Part shown: one piece after another, positions 21,441 through 41,434 of the stretch | Layout: every line of letters begins with the position of its first letter | Position numbering within the stretch: position 1 is the stretch's first letter | The notes under the pieces: model-generated | What the model saw: only the letters and a program-made list of their open reading frames with translations | The model's database searches: none | What the model was told of the DNA's origin: nothing | Position numbers and translations under genes: made by a program | Virus record (IMG/VR): IMGVR_UViG_3300032278_004270 | Coordinates: 1-43,507 of that record | DNA length: 43,507 bases | Reading direction: 5' to 3' (one strand) | Origin: a virus

Positions 21441-22975
21441 GTTTCTTCCTCACCGTCCGGGTTTTCATCGTCGGCTTCTTCCGGGGCTTCATCCTCGGGA
21501 TCCGGTTCTGACTCGGGGAGCTCGGGAGCGTTACCGGCCGACATCCCAGGCACGCCGCCCGAGGCTTCGGCGTGGTCCTCGATGTTGCTTTGTTCCTGCT
21601 CATATTCGAGCCCGAACCATGCCGAAGCCGTCTGAGGGGAGAGCAGGCTCAGCCCCGTGAGAATCTGAGCCACCTGAGCGGACTGCAGCTGATCCCGAAC
21701 GGCGATATCGGGCCCCTCGATCTGAATCACGATCTGATCGACCTCTGATTCCTTCAGCAGGCCAGCCGCCACGGCCACCTCGAGAACGTCCTCCATCAGC
21801 TCCTGTTCGGCCATCACCTCGGCCCACTGGATTCGCTGGAAGTTCTTCACGGCCGGCCCCTCGGCTGCCATGAGGGACGCGTAATGAGCGTTATTGGCGT
21901 TGCTGGCGAGCATGAACTCGGGCATCACGATTCGAGCCGCGGCCGAGCGGATTTCAGACTCGAAAGCATACGCGTACTTCGAGGGATCCACGCCCATCGA
22001 CGGAAATTCGTATTCCACGCCGCCGTTCGCGTTCAGGATCGTTCCCGGCTCGAAACGCTGGACATGAGGGATCCCATCGGCCCCCGTTCCCCCTGTTCCG
22101 GTGGGGATGCCGGCCGTGGCCTGCTGCTGCCCCCGCACAAACTTATTGACGGTGGAATCGGTGGCTTTGACCATGCGCCGGATCATGGCAATGGCCGTTT
22201 GGATTTGAGACAGAGCCGACATATTCCGCTGCAGCTTCTTCGCCCGCTTCAGGTTCGGTTCGACCGGGTAGAACGTAGGAACTCCCCGCTTCATCGAGGA
22301 ATCGGCGTTCCGCTTGCGGTGGATGATCTCTTTCGCAGGAACCCAATCCCCTTCCGATGCGATGTAGTAATCGGTCACCGTCTCGATGTCATCGGGATCG
22401 GTCCGGATCCCGAACGTTTCGTTCTCCTTGGCGTTCGATGGAGACTGCAGATCTTCCGGCTCCACGTAGCGAACGCGGAGAATGCCATCCTTGGGAGCGA
22501 ACTTCCGGAGAATCACCTCCCCGTCTCGGTCGCTTCTCTGGTTGTTCTCCTGAGATTTGAGGCTCCACTTATTGGCCTTCAGGAATTCGTCGATCACATC
22601 CTGAACCTTGCGAATCGTCCGCTTCGAGGGACTGGCTCCCCTTCGAGCGGTGACCGTGTACGTGAATCCCCAGCCGTAAACGTAGGATGTCCGGTTCTCC
22701 CGGCCGCTGATGGCGAATTCATTGCGGACATCGAGTTCCCGGCCGATGTCCCGGCATGCTTTCAGCCCGTTTTCGTCGTGATAGACATGATGGGATCGGT
22801 CCCGATCGGCTCCCACAACGTCCCAGAGCTCTTCCCCGTTGCGGTAACGGTCCAGGGGATCAACAAACGACTTGAACACATCGAGCGACTCTTTCAGCGT
22901 CTGATTCATCGCCTCGATCAGCATCAGTTCCCGGGATTCGAGCTCCCGGAGTTGGGTTTGCGCGTCGTTGATCAT
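21437..22975 (-). CDS. Portal protein
   Basis: A 512-residue protein forming the DNA entry ring. Signs are its position between terminase and MuF, a wing region (RENRTSYVYGWGFTYTVTAR), the stem-like ALSQIQTAIAMIRRMVKATD and clip segments, and an acidic C terminus (EPDPEDEAPEEADDENPDGE). Length is normal for siphovirus portals. It overlaps both neighbours by ATGA. Confidence 0.85.
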   Translation of the reverse strand: MINDAQTQLRELESRELMLIEAMNQTLKESLDVFKSFVDPLDRYRNGEELWDVVGADRDRSHHVYHDENGLKACRDIGRELDVRNEFAISGRENRTSYVYGWGFTYTVTARRGASPSKRTIRKVQDVIDEFLKANKWSLKSQENNQRSDRDGEVILRKFAPKDGILRVRYVEPEDLQSPSNAKENETFGIRTDPDDIETVTDYYIASEGDWVPAKEIIHRKRNADSSMKRGVPTFYPVEPNLKRAKKLQRNMSALSQIQTAIAMIRRMVKATDSTVNKFVRGQQQATAGIPTGTGGTGADGIPHVQRFEPGTILNANGGVEYEFPSMGVDPSKYAYAFESEIRSAAARIVMPEFMLASNANNAHYASLMAAEGPAVKNFQRIQWAEVMAEQELMEDVLEVAVAAGLLKESEVDQIVIQIEGPDIAVRDQLQSAQVAQILTGLSLLSPQTASAWFGLEYEQEQSNIEDHAEASGGVPGMSAGNAPELPESEPDPEDEAPEEADDENPDGEEET

Positions 22976-24411
22976 CTGAGCTTCTCCAGAAGGTTATGGC
23001 CGAGGTTGTCATCGGCCACGGTATGGCCGCACAGCTCGAGCCCGAGCCGGAGAGCCATCTCCAGAGCGTCCGGGCCATCATCGTGCTGAGCCAGCGGGAA
23101 CTGTTTGAGCTGATCGACCAGGAGCCGATTGCTGGGAGTGTCCGAGAATCGGAGTTCGCCGCGGCATAGGTAAGGCCCGAGCCGTCGGATGCGAATCTCC
23201 TTCTTCACTTTGTTCTCGATCGTGTAGAGGGGGAGCGGGGGGATGTTCCGCTCTTCACATTGCCGCTGAATCTCGGGCAACAGCAAATCCTGAAACTGGT
23301 TTCCCTCGATCCCGATGGCATCGGCCCGGAATTCGAGAGCGAAATCGATCAGATCGGCAATCATCTGAGGCACCGGACGCCGGCGAATGTCGGCCTCGAT
23401 GTGAATCCTCCCGTTCTCCGGAGCCGCTCCCACAATGGCCGAGTAATCGCCGGATTTGGCATCCCGGCCTTTCGAGGGATCGAGAACCACGACCCGCATG
23501 AACGGATTGGCTGGGAACTGGTTTGGATGAATCCACATCTCGGGCGGAAAGTAGCTGGCCGGCCACTCGGTTCGTCCATGCTGCCCGGGAGTCTGCTGAT
23601 ACATCGACAGCCACCAGAACAGATCGAGGTTCTTTCGCGTGTTCTCCAGAACCTCCCGGTTGTAGCGTTCTGGCCAGAGAGCATCCCCAGGCTGACGGCC
23701 GAGCGGATCGTTCTCCCCAGCCAGAGCCGGGAGCGAAACAACGTCCCACTTTTCACCGGTCTCGGCTGCCCGCTTGCGAATCCGGCCGATCAGGTCATCT
23801 TCGTGCCATCTGGTCATCATCACGAAAACGCCGCCACCGGGCTCGAGACGCGTCAGCGCCGTGGAGTTCCACCAGTCCCAATGTGCTTCCTGAACGGTCA
23901 AAGAGAGCGCTTCCTCGGCATTCTTCACCGGATCATCGACCCCGAGGATGTGGAAGCCCTTCCCGGTGAGCGGTCCGCCCACGCCGGCCGTGTTCATGCC
24001 GCCCGTGTGGCCGCTGATTTGCCAGTTGTCCCGGGCTGATGTTCGCTTCGAGACGTGCACGCCGAACACCGCTGGCCCGAACTCCTCGAGGAGATTGCGG
24101 GCCTTCTCCCCCCAGCTGGCCGCGAATCCCGATTCGTAGCCGACGGTTCCGAAACGCCGATCGGGGAACGTGCCGAGGAACCACGCGGGGAAGAACTTCG
24201 AACAGAGTTCGCTTTTCCCGTGCCGTGGTGGCATCTCGATGATCAGCCGCGAAATCTTGCCCGTGGCCAGTTCGACCAGCTTCCGATTGACCAGGAGCAG
24301 ATGGCGAGCCAGCTTGTAATGGCCTCGGGACACAATCTGAGCGAAACCGGCCGGCGTTCCGGTCAGCTGCAGCAGCTGCTTCTGACGGGGGGAGAGAGTC
24401 ATATTGCTCAT
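22972..24411 (-). CDS. terL: Terminase large subunit
   Basis: A 479-residue packaging ATPase and nuclease. Walker A is PPRHGKSE (residues 61-68); Walker B and coupling region read GGGVFVMMTRWHEDDLIGRI; a further acidic pair is in ILGVDDPVKN. The RNase-H-like nuclease domain shows VVLDPSKGRDAKSGDYSAI (first Asp), DAIGIEGNQFQ and DDGPDALEMALRLG (last Asp). The start at 24411 forms an ATGA overlap with the small subunit stop. All motifs are intact. Confidence 0.93.
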   Translation of the reverse strand: MSNMTLSPRQKQLLQLTGTPAGFAQIVSRGHYKLARHLLLVNRKLVELATGKISRLIIEMPPRHGKSELCSKFFPAWFLGTFPDRRFGTVGYESGFAASWGEKARNLLEEFGPAVFGVHVSKRTSARDNWQISGHTGGMNTAGVGGPLTGKGFHILGVDDPVKNAEEALSLTVQEAHWDWWNSTALTRLEPGGGVFVMMTRWHEDDLIGRIRKRAAETGEKWDVVSLPALAGENDPLGRQPGDALWPERYNREVLENTRKNLDLFWWLSMYQQTPGQHGRTEWPASYFPPEMWIHPNQFPANPFMRVVVLDPSKGRDAKSGDYSAIVGAAPENGRIHIEADIRRRPVPQMIADLIDFALEFRADAIGIEGNQFQDLLLPEIQRQCEERNIPPLPLYTIENKVKKEIRIRRLGPYLCRGELRFSDTPSNRLLVDQLKQFPLAQHDDGPDALEMALRLGLELCGHTVADDNLGHNLLEKLR

Positions 24412-33668: not shown

Positions 33669-35360
33669 TCAAACGGACAGATTCGCTCTGACCAGCGCTT
33701 CGACCACTTGCGGACAGACGGAGTTTCCGCAGCGGGCCACCTGTTGCGATTTCGTGGCCGGCTTCCCGTTGACGCCGGTTTCAATCACGTAATTCGAGGG
33801 GAAGCCCTGAGCTTTGAAGAGCTCACGGGGAGTGAGCATCCGCATGCCGATATCCACGATCTGAAACGGCTCCCCGCCGATCAGCACAATGCCGAGGCAG
33901 AGCCGGTCCTTCGTCGTGATCGTGGACAGTGGCAGAGTGACGGGATGCGAGTTGGTCCCGCTCCCGTAGTATTTCATGAGGAAGGCCCGGACTTCGGCGT
34001 GATGCGTCCCCTGAGCCACGATTGTTCGCAACGGCTCATTGACATCGAACCACTGCTTTGCACCGTGGTTGTTCTTGATCAGATAGGCTGCACAGATCTG
34101 ATTCTGGCAGCCCTTTGCGGTGATCGTCGGGAACGGTGTTGAGGCTGGAACGCCCACCATGCCGCCGAAGTGTTTGATGAGAAACGCGGACACCAGGGCG
34201 GATTTATTCTCAGCCGTGACGGTCCCCAGGGGGGAGAGAGCATCCGTCCCGATCCCCTGACCGAACATTCGCGAAACGTGAGCCGAGATCAGCCCGAATC
34301 GGTTTTCTGTCGATTGCGTGGGCAGTGGCTCCCGACAATTACGGCCACGATGGCAATGATCACCTTTCGGCCCGTAGTAAGAACTGAGGAACGGTGTCAC
34401 CAGTCCATAGCCGTTCTTTCCGGTCACGGTTCCGAGTGGCTCATCGAGGTTCTGGCCTCGGAAGTGATCCCCGCCATGATTCACCCGAACCACGAACGGC
34501 TCGGACGATTCAATCACATATCGCCGAATCCCCTCAGCAATCCGGGCCAGCGTTTTCTCAGCCAGTGGACGCCGGCAATTCTGAGCTTTCGCCTCCTCGG
34601 GGCTGAGGAAGATCGATGGGCATGGAATCGACCAGTCGATGATTTCGGACGCAGCCCGCCACGGCCGGAGATTCGTTCGGCGTTTCGTTTCGAGCTCCTT
34701 CCGGATCACCTTGGGAGCCGCGTGCGTCGGCTTTGGCCAGACGATCGGCTTTCCATCGCAGCGGGCCACGATGAAGAGCCGTTTTCGCGTGGTCGGTGTC
34801 CCGTAATCACAAGCCCGGAGAACTTTCCATTCGACCTCATAGCCGAGCTCCCGGAGCTTCCAGACCCAGAGCTGAAACGTGATTCCCTTTTTCTCCGGGA
34901 TCGGCCGTTGTGTTTCGCGGTCGACCGGTCCCCACTCCTGAAACTCCTCCACGTTCTCGATGAACATCACGCGCGGCTTGACCAGTTCGGCCCACTTCAC
35001 CACGACCCAGGCCAGCCCGCGAATATTCTTCTTCACCGGCTTCGACCCTCGGGCCTTGCTGTGATGCGTGCAATCCGGAGAGAACCAGGCAGCTTCGACT
35101 TCCCGGCCTTCGCATGTCTCCACCGGATCCACGTTCCAGATGTTTTCGCAATAGTGTTTCGTGTCCGGATGGTTGGCCATGTGCATGGCGATGGCAGCCG
35201 GATCGTGGTTGATGGCCACATCGACCTGTCGGCCAATAGCCGCCTCGAGTCCGACGGAAGCCCCGCCGCCACCAGCGAAACCGTCCACGATAATCGGCCG
35301 CTTCGGGAGTGGCCTGCTGTGCGGCTCATTGAACCAGAATCGTTTCTGAAGAACTTTCAT
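33669..35360 (-). CDS. C5-cytosine DNA methyltransferase
   Basis: A 563-residue protein from MKVLQKRFWFNEP (AGGAGG upstream; ATGA with the zinc-protein gene). Motif I VDGFAGGGGAS binds AdoMet; motif IV is FSPDCTHHS (catalytic Cys in a PDC rather than PPC context); motif VI FIENVEEF; motif VIII YGTPTTRKRL; closing motif CGNSVCPQVVEAL. The large target-recognition region contains about five degenerate repeats of an EPL.T(V/I)T...FL..(Y/F)(Y/F)G type. It probably protects phage DNA from host restriction or alters gene expression. No cognate endonuclease gene was seen. Confidence 0.85.
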   Translation of the reverse strand: MKVLQKRFWFNEPHSRPLPKRPIIVDGFAGGGGASVGLEAAIGRQVDVAINHDPAAIAMHMANHPDTKHYCENIWNVDPVETCEGREVEAAWFSPDCTHHSKARGSKPVKKNIRGLAWVVVKWAELVKPRVMFIENVEEFQEWGPVDRETQRPIPEKKGITFQLWVWKLRELGYEVEWKVLRACDYGTPTTRKRLFIVARCDGKPIVWPKPTHAAPKVIRKELETKRRTNLRPWRAASEIIDWSIPCPSIFLSPEEAKAQNCRRPLAEKTLARIAEGIRRYVIESSEPFVVRVNHGGDHFRGQNLDEPLGTVTGKNGYGLVTPFLSSYYGPKGDHCHRGRNCREPLPTQSTENRFGLISAHVSRMFGQGIGTDALSPLGTVTAENKSALVSAFLIKHFGGMVGVPASTPFPTITAKGCQNQICAAYLIKNNHGAKQWFDVNEPLRTIVAQGTHHAEVRAFLMKYYGSGTNSHPVTLPLSTITTKDRLCLGIVLIGGEPFQIVDIGMRMLTPRELFKAQGFPSNYVIETGVNGKPATKSQQVARCGNSVCPQVVEALVRANLSV

Positions 35361-35578
35361 CGTGCCTCCTGATTGCACTTCGGGCAGGGAATGCCGCGTT
35401 TTGCTTCGGTGATGGTGACCTGTATCCAGTCCGTTTCTTCATCGCAGTGGACGCAACGGAATCGGGCCATGCAGCAATCGGCCAGCGTCTCATCGGGCCC
35501 GGCATCGATCACGTGCATCAGCTTTCGCGGCTTTCGCCGTGGTCGTTTGATTTCTGGGAACAGCTTGTTTTGTTTCAT
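35357..35578 (-). CDS. Small zinc-ribbon protein
   Basis: A 73-residue protein from MKQNKLFPEIKRPRRKPRK. Two CxxC pairs (FRCVHCDEET, GIPCPKCNQEAR) form a zinc ribbon; HVIDAGPDET is a conserved block of this small phage family. It overlaps the RusA-type gene by 89 bases and is ATGA-coupled to the methyltransferase. Confidence 0.65.
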   Translation of the reverse strand: MKQNKLFPEIKRPRRKPRKLMHVIDAGPDETLADCCMARFRCVHCDEETDWIQVTITEAKRGIPCPKCNQEAR

Positions 35579-36813: not shown

Positions 36814-37098
36814 CTAAAAAAGTGATTGCTGTTGATGCTTCTTCCGGCGTTTCTCCTGCTCTTCACGTTCGCGCCGGGCCTTCTCCTCTTTGAGCTGCTT
36901 CTCAAGCTGCTCCTTCACCTGATCGGTTTCGCGGTGAGCTGCCAGAATCAGGAGCCGATCGAACTGAGAGGGGGAGAGCCGGCCCGACTTGCGGGCCTGT
37001 TTCATGTACTTCCGGATCCCCTCCAGTTCGTACGGGCCTGCGTTCTCCAGATCTCCCTGCAGGCTGTCAAAGAAATCGATTTCGGCCGGCTCGGTCAC
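36814..37098 (-). CDS. Small charged coiled-coil protein
   Basis: A 94-residue protein MTEPAEIDFFDSLQGDLENA ending in a Lys/Glu/Arg/Gln-rich helix (REREEQEKRRKKHQQQSLF). It is ATGA-coupled to the SMC-like gene, so it probably works with that ATPase. The terminal QQQSLF-like end resembles sliding-clamp-binding (Q..(L/I)..F) peptides loosely; that is a guess. Confidence 0.5.
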   Translation of the reverse strand: MTEPAEIDFFDSLQGDLENAGPYELEGIRKYMKQARKSGRLSPSQFDRLLILAAHRETDQVKEQLEKQLKEEKARREREEQEKRRKKHQQQSLF

Positions 37099-38381
37099 GA
37101 TGCCGCCTCGGCCAGCTCCTCCACGCCGGCAACGTGGCCGTCTTCGATGACGATCTCACCAGGGATTCCGGTTCCCACGCGTTCCACGATGATTTGGGCA
37201 TCGTGTTCGATGGCCAGAGCGTGCAGCATGGCCAGCGAATCATCATCGAGGAGCGAACCATCCCGAATCAGGATCATCCGGAGCTTCGGATTCTGGCTCA
37301 GCCCGATCGCGGTGGAGATCCTCAGCTGTTCAGCCGAACTGCATTGAGTGAATGGCAGATCATTGAACGTCACGCCTTTCGAGCCGAAGCCGAGCCCTTT
37401 CACGGGCCACTTCGCCGAATCCATCAGAGCCATCCGCCGCTGGCGAAGATCTTCAATCGATTTGGTGAGCGTATCGGCCGCGGTGGTTCGCTCCCGGAGT
37501 TTGGCTTTCGCCCGTTCGCGTTCCCGGTTCGCGCTCACCTGTTCGTTGATGGCCGAAGCGCTGGCAATCTTCGCGCTCAGCGGTTCCGTGTCGATCAGCG
37601 GTTTCTGATCGAGAAGAGCTTTCTTTTCTCTGTAGTCGGTCCGGGCAATTCTGAGATCCTCCTCAGCTTTCTGCAGGGATGCTTTCAATCGTTCGATATG
37701 GTCCTTCAGATCCTCGATCCCGACTCGCTTGCCCTCAACTTCCTCTGACAGCTCGGCCCGAATCGCGTTTTCGTTATTCGCTTCCGTCAGCTCCCGGAGC
37801 AGCTCATCAACATTCACCGGAAGATCGGGAGCATCGAGATGATGCGGCATCGCCTCGAAATCAGCTTTGGCCCGCTCCACATCCCGATTGACGAGCTTCC
37901 GCTCCTCCATCTCTTTGGCAATCGCCTCATCGAGCTCGGCCGTGTCGACTCCCACCAGGGCCTTCAGCAGATCGATCTGTTTGGCCGGTGTCAGCCGCGT
38001 GAATGCCAGCGGATCGAACGCCACCGTTCCCACCAGAGCATCGAGAACCTGCTGAGGCTTCGACACCTTTGACTCGATGTCTCCGTTCTTCTGCGTGATG
38101 GTGAGCGTGGTTTTCCCGTCGGATTTGATACGCCGGACGATCCGGAGCGGTGGCTCCGTGCTGATGGTGGCCTCGATGATCGATTCATCGGAGCCGACTC
38201 TCACCGGCACTTCATCAATCGAGTTCTTTCCGCAGAGAGCGGCCATGATGCCATCGAGGATCGAGGATTTCCCCTGTCCGTTCCGGCCGGCGATGATCAC
38301 CGTTCCGTTGGGTTGGGGCTTCAGTTCAACAGCCGAGAGCCGCTTGAAGTTCTCGGCACGAAATTCGATAAGAGCGGCCAT
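37095..38381 (-). CDS. SMC/RecF-like recombination ATPase
   Basis: A 428-residue protein with Walker A GRNGQGKSS (about 32-40), a ABC-type signature TQCSSAEQLRISTAI near the C terminus and a Walker-B-like MILIRDGSLLDDD; the coiled coil between them (about 180-300) links the two halves. The closing IVERVGTGIPGEIVIEDG fits the D-loop/H-loop region. Phage SMC-like ATPases of this type commonly accompany annealases and exonucleases. Its Walker B lacks a clear DE pair, so hydrolysis may be weak. Confidence 0.75.
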   Translation of the reverse strand: MAALIEFRAENFKRLSAVELKPQPNGTVIIAGRNGQGKSSILDGIMAALCGKNSIDEVPVRVGSDESIIEATISTEPPLRIVRRIKSDGKTTLTITQKNGDIESKVSKPQQVLDALVGTVAFDPLAFTRLTPAKQIDLLKALVGVDTAELDEAIAKEMEERKLVNRDVERAKADFEAMPHHLDAPDLPVNVDELLRELTEANNENAIRAELSEEVEGKRVGIEDLKDHIERLKASLQKAEEDLRIARTDYREKKALLDQKPLIDTEPLSAKIASASAINEQVSANRERERAKAKLRERTTAADTLTKSIEDLRQRRMALMDSAKWPVKGLGFGSKGVTFNDLPFTQCSSAEQLRISTAIGLSQNPKLRMILIRDGSLLDDDSLAMLHALAIEHDAQIIVERVGTGIPGEIVIEDGHVAGVEELAEAAS

Positions 38382-38435: not shown

Positions 38436-39416
38436 TCAGAACGGGTAATCGTCGTCAGTGTCGCCAGATGACATCCCGGCTTCGCCGTTGCGGATGTCGT
38501 CATCGGTGGGTGGTCCGTCGGTGGTTTCTTTGGTGGCTGCTTCCGATTCCGGCTGGCGCTGATTCTTCATTCGCTCGGCCACCTGTTGCGTCCGGCTTCC
38601 CGTGGGCTTCTGAGCCGGCTCATCGGCGCTGATGTCGAAATACTGCTCACGTTGAGCCATGCCGTCCCGGAGCGATCGGGCCACGCCCTTGAGGTTTACC
38701 AGCTCCTGCTCATTGCATGCGGTGATTTTGTGCCCGAGCCGCTTCTCCAGCATCTTCTGAGTGACTCCGAGTTCCCCGAACGCAATCACCATGTCCCGGA
38801 TGCGGTCCTGCAATGGCTTCGTGTTGCCCTCGGAGAGTGTCCGCGTGACTTGAGCGATGGCCGCGTCCTGCACATCACCGGGAATGATCCCGAGAATGCA
38901 GGCCCGAACGCGCCGGGCTCCGAGATTGGCCACCTGCTCATAGATGTCACGGGGATCGGTCAGCAGTCTCGCCGGAGCTTCACGGCGATGGACCTTGTGG
39001 GCCACCGTGAAAACCATCTGCCGGCGCGTGTTCGTTTCCAGATCCCACGCATAGGACATGCAAACCGATTCGCCGTGCTTCTGCTCCAGTTCGATCACGC
39101 CGTAATCGATGTTTCCCCAGGCTTGAGCCATCGCCTCGGCCAGTCGGATCGATGGCCCGTGCACGTTGGTTCCACCTTTCGGATAGGTATACATGGCACA
39201 CTCGGCCAGCCCTCTGCGCTGGCAGCTTTTCAGAATCCGCTGCATACACGCGATTTCATCACGGGGGAATTGTTTGGCGAGGAAGATGGCCGCTTTCACT
39301 TCCTCGGCTTGCCGCGTTGTCGCCAGAGACATCGTCCCGGCGTTGTTCTGATCGGAGAAGGAGAGCCCGTTTCCGGTTCCGTTCCCGTTCACGTGGTTTC
39401 GATCGGATGTCATCAT
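38436..39416 (-). CDS. Putative phage annealase / recombination protein with SSB-like tail
   Basis: A 326-residue protein. The conserved body has GPSIRLAEAMAQAWGNIDYG, the YAWDLETNTRRQMVFTVAHK strand set, LLTDPRDIYEQVANLGARRV and RACILGIIPGDVQDAAIAQV. I recognise this pattern from phage proteins next to YqaJ exonucleases and interpret it as a single-strand annealing protein, by context. The last residues TDDDYPF copy the C-terminal acidic peptide of single-strand binding protein (DDDIPF), which recruits host repair enzymes. Overlaps the exonuclease gene by ATGA. Confidence 0.6.
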   Translation of the reverse strand: MMTSDRNHVNGNGTGNGLSFSDQNNAGTMSLATTRQAEEVKAAIFLAKQFPRDEIACMQRILKSCQRRGLAECAMYTYPKGGTNVHGPSIRLAEAMAQAWGNIDYGVIELEQKHGESVCMSYAWDLETNTRRQMVFTVAHKVHRREAPARLLTDPRDIYEQVANLGARRVRACILGIIPGDVQDAAIAQVTRTLSEGNTKPLQDRIRDMVIAFGELGVTQKMLEKRLGHKITACNEQELVNLKGVARSLRDGMAQREQYFDISADEPAQKPTGSRTQQVAERMKNQRQPESEAATKETTDGPPTDDDIRNGEAGMSSGDTDDDYPF

Positions 39417-40447
39417 TTCGCCACCTTCAGCTTTCGTTGAGTAAGCCGGACATGCCCCCGCCTTTTGAGCTGTCCGACCCGGAATTTGACTTCCCGAACG
39501 TCCTGTTCGGTGAAAATGGAATCAGCAATTACTGACCGCTTGATTTCGATATCTTCGACACCAGGAACGCGGCCGAGCTCAGCCGGCCCGAAGATGTGCA
39601 GGAGCTTGGCTTTCGCCGTTTCGCGTTGCTCCTCAATCTTCTTCTTCAGCTCCCCGAGCCGCTGATATCGCTGCCAGAGCTTCAGGGCTTCGTCATCGAA
39701 CGTCACGACCTTGCCGACTTCGAAGCCGTGCATCTGGCCGAGAACGCGAACCGTGCCGCTGTGCTGCCAGTTCGGTTCCGGGGGATCCCCGGCCACGATC
39801 CGCTCGGCCAGCTCTTTCTCAGCCGATTCGATTTGCTCGATCAGATCATCATTCCGGTCTATGAAGTAAATCCGGAATTCATCGGCATAGACTGGCAAAT
39901 CACACCGTTGCAGCCCGAGAACGGCCAGCTGTTGCTGAGCCTGAAACAGATACTGCGTCGGGATGGCATCGGTCCCGGCTTCGCCGAACTTGTTTTCATC
40001 GATGCCCGATTTGTCGATCATCCGGAAGCTGGTCAGCTTGGCCTCGACGGCCGTATCGTCCGGGCAGATCTCCTCGGCCGTTTCCGGGTTCTCTTTGGCT
40101 ACTCCATCGGGCGTGGCTGCCATGAACGGCAGAACCGGATGAAAGAACATCGGGAGATTTCGGACGGTTTTTTGCTTGGTCCGGATCTCATAGAGATCGA
40201 CCGTGGCCCGCTCGAAGATGTGGCCTTCCTCCATCCGCCGCCGCTGGACTTCGGAGAACTCAGCTTCGAACTCTCCCCGCTTTTCCAGATACAACTGAAG
40301 CGGGGACGAATACGGAGATTGATCGACAGCCGCCGCGGCATCCGAGGCCCCGAAGATCACTGGCCGTTCTCTCCGATCTGGATCGAACATTCTCAGAGCG
40401 AACCATTCATCCGAGTAGGCTTTCGGCCCGGGGATTGGTTGGATCAT
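39413..40447 (-). CDS. YqaJ-type phage exonuclease
   Basis: A 344-residue PD-(D/E)XK exonuclease. Markers: IFGASDAAAAVDQSPYSSPL, QLYLEKRGE, GHIFERATVDLYE (Glu79), PFMAATPDGV (Asp114), AVEAKLTSF (Glu135-x-Lys137) and YLFQAQQQLAVLGLQRCDL. The catalytic set is complete. With the neighbouring annealase it forms a Red-like recombination pair. The C-terminal 120 residues are an added helical domain. Confidence 0.85.
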   Translation of the reverse strand: MIQPIPGPKAYSDEWFALRMFDPDRRERPVIFGASDAAAAVDQSPYSSPLQLYLEKRGEFEAEFSEVQRRRMEEGHIFERATVDLYEIRTKQKTVRNLPMFFHPVLPFMAATPDGVAKENPETAEEICPDDTAVEAKLTSFRMIDKSGIDENKFGEAGTDAIPTQYLFQAQQQLAVLGLQRCDLPVYADEFRIYFIDRNDDLIEQIESAEKELAERIVAGDPPEPNWQHSGTVRVLGQMHGFEVGKVVTFDDEALKLWQRYQRLGELKKKIEEQRETAKAKLLHIFGPAELGRVPGVEDIEIKRSVIADSIFTEQDVREVKFRVGQLKRRGHVRLTQRKLKVAK

Positions 40448-40755
40448 GCGGACACCTCCTGTTCGATCTCAGAGAACTGCATATCAAACGCCCGAGAAAG
40501 AATCAGGGCGCTGCCTAACATTGACACCGGCAAATCGCTCAGATCAGTGAACTTCGCCCACGCGAGAACGTAGATATCCACGCGCCAGAGATCCCGGAAT
40601 CGGTTCATCAGATCGATCGACGGCGATGACTTGCCGAATTCGATATTGCAAAGATGAACCGCGCTGATCCCCAGCAGCTTCGCGGCTTCGCGTTGAGACA
40701 AGCCGTGTGCCATTCTGATCATCCGAGCGGCTTTCCCGAGAGCAGATGGGTTCAA
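40444..40755 (-). CDS. XRE-family transcription regulator
   Basis: A 103-residue protein starting at TTG 40755 (AAGGAGGTG 7 bases upstream; TTGA overlap with the preceding stop). HTH: MIRMAHGLSQREAAKLLGIS followed by AVHLCNIEFGKSSPSIDLMN, the Cro/CI pattern. A short C-terminal helical part could dimerise. It is a candidate for repressor or modulator of early transcription; it is not preceded by an obvious promoter and is expressed from the csrA transcript. Confidence 0.75.
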   Translation of the reverse strand: MNPSALGKAARMIRMAHGLSQREAAKLLGISAVHLCNIEFGKSSPSIDLMNRFRDLWRVDIYVLAWAKFTDLSDLPVSMLGSALILSRAFDMQFSEIEQEVSA

Positions 40756-41030
40756 GATTGCACCTCCTTCACGCGTGCGGCCAGCATCGCATCGGCGAAC
40801 CGATACGCCGCTTTTGCGACGTTGCACGCGAACGCCTTCCGTTCCTGCTCAATGCCCTCGGGACCCCTCGAGACACAAGCGGGGGTTTCCCTGTCGTCAG
40901 CAAGAAGGCCAGCAAGAGCCTGACCGGCGAACCAGTCCCGGAGAGACATGCCGGCTTCGCCTCGGCTCCCGTGAATGGGATGATCTTCGAACCAGGGGAA
41001 CGCGGATGGGTTTGGTTTTCTCGGGCTCAT
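40752..41030 (-). CDS. Unrecognised small protein between csrA and XRE
   Basis: A 92-residue protein from MSPRKPNPSAFPWFEDHPIH. ATG 41030 overlaps the csrA stop (ATGA), deciding the start. SLRDWFAGQALAGLLADDRE and AYRFADAMLAARVKEVQ are helical and recur in small phage proteins I know only as hypothetical. No function is claimed. Confidence 0.6.
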   Translation of the reverse strand: MSPRKPNPSAFPWFEDHPIHGSRGEAGMSLRDWFAGQALAGLLADDRETPACVSRGPEGIEQERKAFACNVAKAAYRFADAMLAARVKEVQS

Positions 41031-41200
41031 GCTGCGTCCTCCTGCTCTTCCACCTCGGCGCGGACAATTCGCCACTTCTCCGAGGCCTCGATTCCGATTC
41101 GGGCCTTCTGATCGGTTGTTCGTGTCACCCTCAGACGGATCGTTTCGGTTCCGTCGGTGATCACGATTTCTTCCCCTTTACGCCGTGCTAAAACCAGCAT
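41027..41200 (-). CDS. csrA: CsrA/RsmA translational regulator
   Basis: A 57-residue protein beginning MLVLARRKGEEIVITDGTE and continuing IRLRVTRTTDQKARIGIEAS, then EKWRIVRAEVEEQ. It matches CsrA across its length: MLVL-x-R start, strand IVI, RIGIEA and VRAEV, with the RNA-contacting Leu4, Arg6 and C-terminal Arg in place. CsrA dimers bind GGA motifs in mRNA leaders and change translation or transcript folding. AAGGAG lies 10 bases before the ATG and is itself an ANGGA site, so self-regulation is possible. ATGA coupling to the next gene ties it to the XRE regulator. Confidence 0.9.
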   Translation of the reverse strand: MLVLARRKGEEIVITDGTETIRLRVTRTTDQKARIGIEASEKWRIVRAEVEEQEDAA

Positions 41201-41233
41201 CGTGCTTTAACTCCTTCGAGAGTGTTGAAAAGA

Positions 41234-41291
41234 GCCGCTCGGGAGTGGAACAGGTTTGCTGTCGACGAGACAACGGACCTTCCCGAGCGGC
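41234..41291 (-). other. Long hairpin in the csrA leader
   Basis: An 11-base perfect inverted repeat (GCCGCTCGGGA at 41234-41244 and its complement at 41281-41291) encloses 36 bases. On the minus strand it is followed by TCTTTTC and then, 19 bases later, the csrA ribosome site. The 234-base interval 41201-41434 carries no credible gene; it also holds a CCTCAGC/GCTGAGG hairpin near 41380 and a GC-rich GCCCGGC/GCCGGGC one near 41400-41425. It is likely a structured leader with attenuator-like elements. Confidence 0.5.
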
Positions 41292-41434
41292 CAGAGACCG
41301 CCCGAACCTTGTCGATTTGGCCAAAATCACTCCTACGGGGAATGTTTCAACTTCGGACGGCCCCGCCTCAGCTACGCCGCTGAGGTGGTTCAAAGAGCCC
41401 GGCCCCGGGCCAGCGGAAAGCCGGGCTGGCCTGA

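Follow-up and report, generated by a model that had tools for sequence, protein, structure and literature searches.

A phage-borne CsrA heading a RecE/RecT recombination operon, and its linkage to recE in related viral loci

The IMG/VR virus record IMGVR_UViG_3300032278_004270 (43,507 bases, analyzed whole and called the window here) carries a 57-residue CsrA-family protein whose gene opens a run of overlapping reading frames that continues into a RecE/YqaJ exonuclease and a RecT-like protein. CsrA proteins are small translational regulators that bind RNA. Across 12 viral loci with this RecE family, csrA lies upstream of recE, on the same strand and within 2.3 kb, in 10 (the window and 9 of the 11 others). 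On balance we favor, with modest confidence, a reading in which a working phage CsrA heads an early recombination operon and exerts post-transcriptional control over early phage genes.

The window has the terminase, portal, head, and tape-measure genes of a tailed phage, all on the minus strand; the left end of the window holds an integrase gene and the right end an excisionase-like one. From csrA onward, the genes for a 92-residue ORF, an XRE regulator, the exonuclease, and the RecT-like protein are joined by 4-nt stop/start overlaps: ATGA at 41030-41027 between csrA and the ORF, TTGA at 40755-40752 between the ORF and XRE, ATGA at 40447-40444 between XRE and recE, and 4 nt at 39416-39413 between recE and recT. 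The leader, the run, and the gene that follows it are as follows.

41201..41434, minus strand: non-coding leader of 234 nt between an ASCH gene and csrA, with a GC-rich hairpin, TCTTTTC, and then the Shine-Dalgarno sequence AAGGAG.
41027..41200, minus strand: csrA, 57 aa, ATG start; identified by PF02599, PHROG_9500, and AlphaFold2 with Foldseek.
40752..41030, minus strand: 92-aa ORF, its start overlapping the csrA stop (ATGA); the C-terminal part corresponds to PHROG_2201 (no assigned function).
40444..40755, minus strand: XRE-type HTH regulator, 103 aa, TTG start in the overlap TTGA, Shine-Dalgarno sequence GGAGG; PF01381, 34 bits.
39413..40447, minus strand: RecE-like/YqaJ exonuclease; PHROG_434, E 4e-50; PF09588, 75.5 bits.
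38436..39416, minus strand: RecT-like protein, overlapping the recE stop; PHROG_3657, E 7.5e-101 (function unlisted in PHROG).
37095..38381, minus strand: SbcC/RecF-like AAA ATPase, after recT; PHROG_1499, E 1.8e-90; PHROG_77, E 4e-19; PF13476.

A phage homologue of the RecT-like protein is annotated as 'RecT-like ssDNA binding protein', and a relative of the 92-residue ORF is also found close to csrA in one of the related loci (L005). The sequence-only reading of this DNA had described csrA as coupled to an XRE regulator gene. The XRE gene does belong to the same overlapping run; because the 92-residue ORF intervenes, however, it is the second gene after csrA rather than its direct partner, and any coupling is indirect. 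Nor is XRE a conserved neighbor, a position held instead by the RecE/YqaJ exonuclease and the RecT-like protein. Searches of the window returned no Rfam RNA and no tRNA. Farther along, a DNA methyltransferase gene (569 aa, 33669-35378) directly precedes the replication-initiation gene.

The csrA product (MLVLARRKGEEIVITDGTETIRLRVTRTTDQKARIGIEASEKWRIVRAEVEEQEDAA) is translated from a start codon with the Shine-Dalgarno sequence AAGGAG ahead of it (preceding sequence, CGAAGGAGTTAAAGCACG). PF02599 covers the protein from end to end at 52.3 bits (E 5.5e-14), compared with a curated cut-off of 27 bits, and PHROG_9500, 'CsrA-like regulator', matches it at E 2e-8. Both scores are far above chance and bear out the earlier assignment of the entire 57-residue frame to CsrA. 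Structure prediction, proposed in that reading as a check, agrees: the AlphaFold2 model, a single chain computed from 33 viral CsrA sequences, has a mean pLDDT of 93 and is composed of beta-strands followed by a helix at residues 48-56, and its 13 top PDB matches in Foldseek are all CsrA, RsmA, or RsmE chains (TM 0.60-0.79), RNA-bound RsmE among them. The equivalents of L4, R6, R7, and R44 are the established RNA contacts of the CsrA family. Alignment of the window protein to 32 other viral CsrA proteins, and separately to what we take to be the E. coli and B. subtilis CsrA reference sequences (the E. coli one matches PDB 1y00 over the compared stretch), shows all of them retained, with R47 as the equivalent of E. 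coli R44. The RNA-binding residues that the sequence-only reading had reported are thus in place, and the loss of Arg/Leu contacts that it had named as counterevidence is not seen in the alignment. The protein does have features of its own, namely a 3-4-residue insertion in the beta2-beta3 loop after residue 15, a change of the A-P-K motif to A-S-E with loss of the Pro, and a short C-terminal tail. A CsrA-family protein that keeps its RNA-contact residues, it is predicted to bind RNA.

The window CsrA used directly as a query drew no match from the viral contigs, and tblastn gave 0 matches in 50,697 phage records. Relatives were therefore gathered by querying with RecE, RecT, and other CsrA proteins. 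Viral contigs were scanned with the window RecE, the window RecT, and a RecE alignment, so that csrA was not the bait for the set of 12 loci, in which near-identical pairs were counted once. In five loci (L004, L005, L006, L023, and L026) csrA abuts or overlaps recE; the distance is about 90 nt in L024, about 0.3-0.4 kb in L027 and L025, 0.6 kb in the window, and 2.1 kb in L002. The two exceptions are L028, whose contig carries csrA at another place, and L029, which lacks it. Clustering of all ORFs flanking recE made CsrA the commonest neighbor family, present in 10 of the 12 loci. The RecT-like family came next with 8, while 3 others have an alternative RecT-type family, and every upstream family apart from CsrA occurred in three loci at most. 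Contigs selected by RecT instead show csrA in 4/4 with a YqaJ exonuclease, two of which (L006 and L007) are near-identical, versus 0/4 without one. The linkage is still seen among RecE proteins as little as about 31% identical, and the divergence of csrA correlates with that of recE over the 10 linked loci (Mantel r 0.49, p 0.006), which are not independent trials because the RecE relatives share ancestry. The phage backbones around these genes differ. The window terminase is found in 0/11 relatives and a terminase of the same PHROG in only 2/11; several contigs may be fragments, which makes the absence of a terminase match weak for any one of them. From these differing terminases, the recombination cassette seems to pass from one phage backbone to another, taking csrA along. 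That otherwise different viruses nearly always keep csrA just upstream of these recombination genes suggests that it serves the phage during its life cycle and is not a host gene picked up by chance.

Several further observations concern individual loci. The window terminase (22972-24411) has a single relative detected in the viral contig scan, at 20% identity, so the virion module of the window is poorly sampled. The RecE-linked CsrA at L027:5455-5661 lacks R6 (MLNLSGK) and may have altered RNA binding or none. L002:3867-5710 and the near-identical L003 have one or two extra frames between csrA and recE, one of them ParB-like by eye. Three RecE-linked loci encode, upstream of csrA, members of a small protein family with a motif of approximately 'V..A..LL....W..D.A...L' (L004:3882-4283, L005:4417-4761, and L006:3688-3900).

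A RecE relative is detectable in eight phage records, three of which also carry csrA: Pseudomonas phages D14H, D14P, and BR153a. The gene order in D14H is csrA, three small ORFs, YqaJ exonuclease, and RecT, and phi297 follows a D14H-like plan with a PD-(D/E)XK nuclease and RecT; csrA is 1.1-1.3 kb upstream of the exonuclease and RecT in these two phages. In D14P and BR153a, a YqaJ gene lies 1.4-2 kb downstream of csrA. The cultured Pseudomonas phages are a looser version of the csrA-recE-recT arrangement. The CsrA of P. aeruginosa phages runs to about 123 aa and combines a CsrA domain with an uncharacterized C-terminal half (L065, L066, L070:5001-5372; PHROG_5527 length). Contigs selected by CsrA itself carry a YqaJ gene in only 2/29 cases, which rules out the idea that csrA is specific to YqaJ exonucleases. 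One of these contigs, L047, has the order csrA, one ORF, RecE, and RecT, L055 places csrA ahead of an exonuclease VIII-type gene, and in several csrA is followed downstream by RecT, exonuclease VIII, or replication-initiation genes, a tally with no control set for comparison. In Vibrio phages, csrA stands ahead of small genes without assigned function. Among RecE relatives in Pseudomonadota chromosomes, csrA is near in 1/10 within the short stretches examined, and a genome scan gave only an Advenella prophage with a RecT relative at 47% and no csrA in the stretch examined.

CsrA target sites were sought in the window RNA. The leaders of csrA, the 92-aa ORF, XRE, and recE contain no hairpin with ANGGA in its loop, and the GGA of the csrA Shine-Dalgarno sequence falls outside any hairpin loop. 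Over 50 window gene starts, likely ANGGA loops numbered 3 compared with 1.8 +/- 1.2 in shuffles, which is no excess. The csrA leader does fold into a long GC-rich hairpin at about 41232-41293, followed by TCTTTTC (z = -1.9, with 7/200 shuffles as good). This hairpin resembles a terminator but is no stronger than chance, the one weak terminator-like match not rising above shuffles.

How might such a protein act? In the reading that we favor, the window CsrA would form the usual CsrA dimer and bind GGA-containing sites at ribosome-binding regions, controlling post-transcriptionally how much of each early phage protein is made or when, with the exonuclease-annealase pair foremost among the targets. 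The coupled frames could perhaps bring CsrA synthesis under this control too, and host mRNAs may be targets as well. Three results weigh against an early-gene role: structured CsrA sites are not in excess, most RecE relatives in Pseudomonadota chromosomes have no csrA within the short stretches examined, and a YqaJ exonuclease is missing from many viral contigs that carry csrA. A more ambitious proposal, which we put at slightly less than an even chance, is that csrA-recE-recT constitutes a class of cassette with a phage-owned CsrA as a core component; this CsrA would control translation of the exonuclease and annealase, and the genes would move as a unit between unrelated backbones.

A serious rival places the main targets of the phage CsrA among host mRNAs, or has the protein compete with host CsrA for sRNAs, so that the cell is reprogrammed during infection or lysogeny; the position ahead of recE-recT would then be simply an early-expressed slot. 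Plasmid-borne RsmQ exerts such control in Pseudomonas fluorescens (PMC9928087), phages often put csrA in early regions before varied replication and recombination genes, and a cis target was not found in the window. An early slot alone, however, does not explain why csrA is retained with recE across differing virion modules. Since csrA stays with recE and other upstream genes do not, control of phage early genes is somewhat likelier, and a mainly host-directed role strikes us as possible but doubtful. Alternatively, csrA could be a passenger, or moron, inherited with recE in one cassette lineage and functionally untied to recombination. The shared RecE ancestry of the 10 loci would fit such an origin, as would Burkholderia phage JC1, in which csrA is next to the capsid gene and was termed a moron even though RecT and YqaJ genes are present (PMC9144972). 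We find this improbable, given that the linkage persists to such low RecE identity and is tighter than that of any other upstream gene, and that csrA also precedes RecE/RecT in L047 and in Pseudomonas phages and an exonuclease VIII-type gene in L055. Finally, the lost Pro, the loop insertion, and the short tail might indicate a CsrA fold that does not bind RNA and works by protein contact, as in PDB entries with CsrA bound to CesT and to a flagellar assembly factor, but retention of every one of the four RNA-contact residues makes this very improbable.

Phage csrA genes have been counted before and mostly regarded as cargo of uncertain use. With a conserved position in front of recombination genes, they acquire a function that can be tested, and post-transcriptional control would join the means by which phages are known to manage their recombinases. 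If CsrA does tune RecE/RecT output, the finding would bear on recombineering tools derived from such operons.

Phage-borne csrA was already known, with 30/2517 phage genomes reported to carry it in 2020 (PMC7366521). Our literature search covered open-access papers, and in these no description turned up either of csrA as a conserved member of a recombination cassette or of an arrangement headed by csrA and trailed by an SbcC-like gene. The window protein is thus a new member of the phage-borne CsrA proteins in a new, conserved arrangement. It resembles the CsrA/RsmA/RsmE family (PF02599) in fold, length, and RNA-contact residues, whereas relative to E. coli CsrA it is 30% identical, has the loop insertion and the altered A-P-K motif, and is carried by a phage. 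Like other phage-borne CsrA proteins (PHROG_9500, PHROG_5527, and RsmM of P. aeruginosa phages) it belongs to a tailed phage, and some P. aeruginosa phages likewise place csrA upstream of an exonuclease-RecT pair, although their protein, at about 123 aa, contrasts with the 57 aa of the window CsrA. RsmQ of plasmid pQBR103 is also a CsrA homologue on a mobile element and is able to act on the host (PMC9928087), yet it resides on a conjugative plasmid, with no recombination cassette described. The window operon follows the RecE/RecT recombination operons of phages in placing the exonuclease before the annealing protein, and it differs from them in having csrA at its head and an SbcC-like ATPase after.
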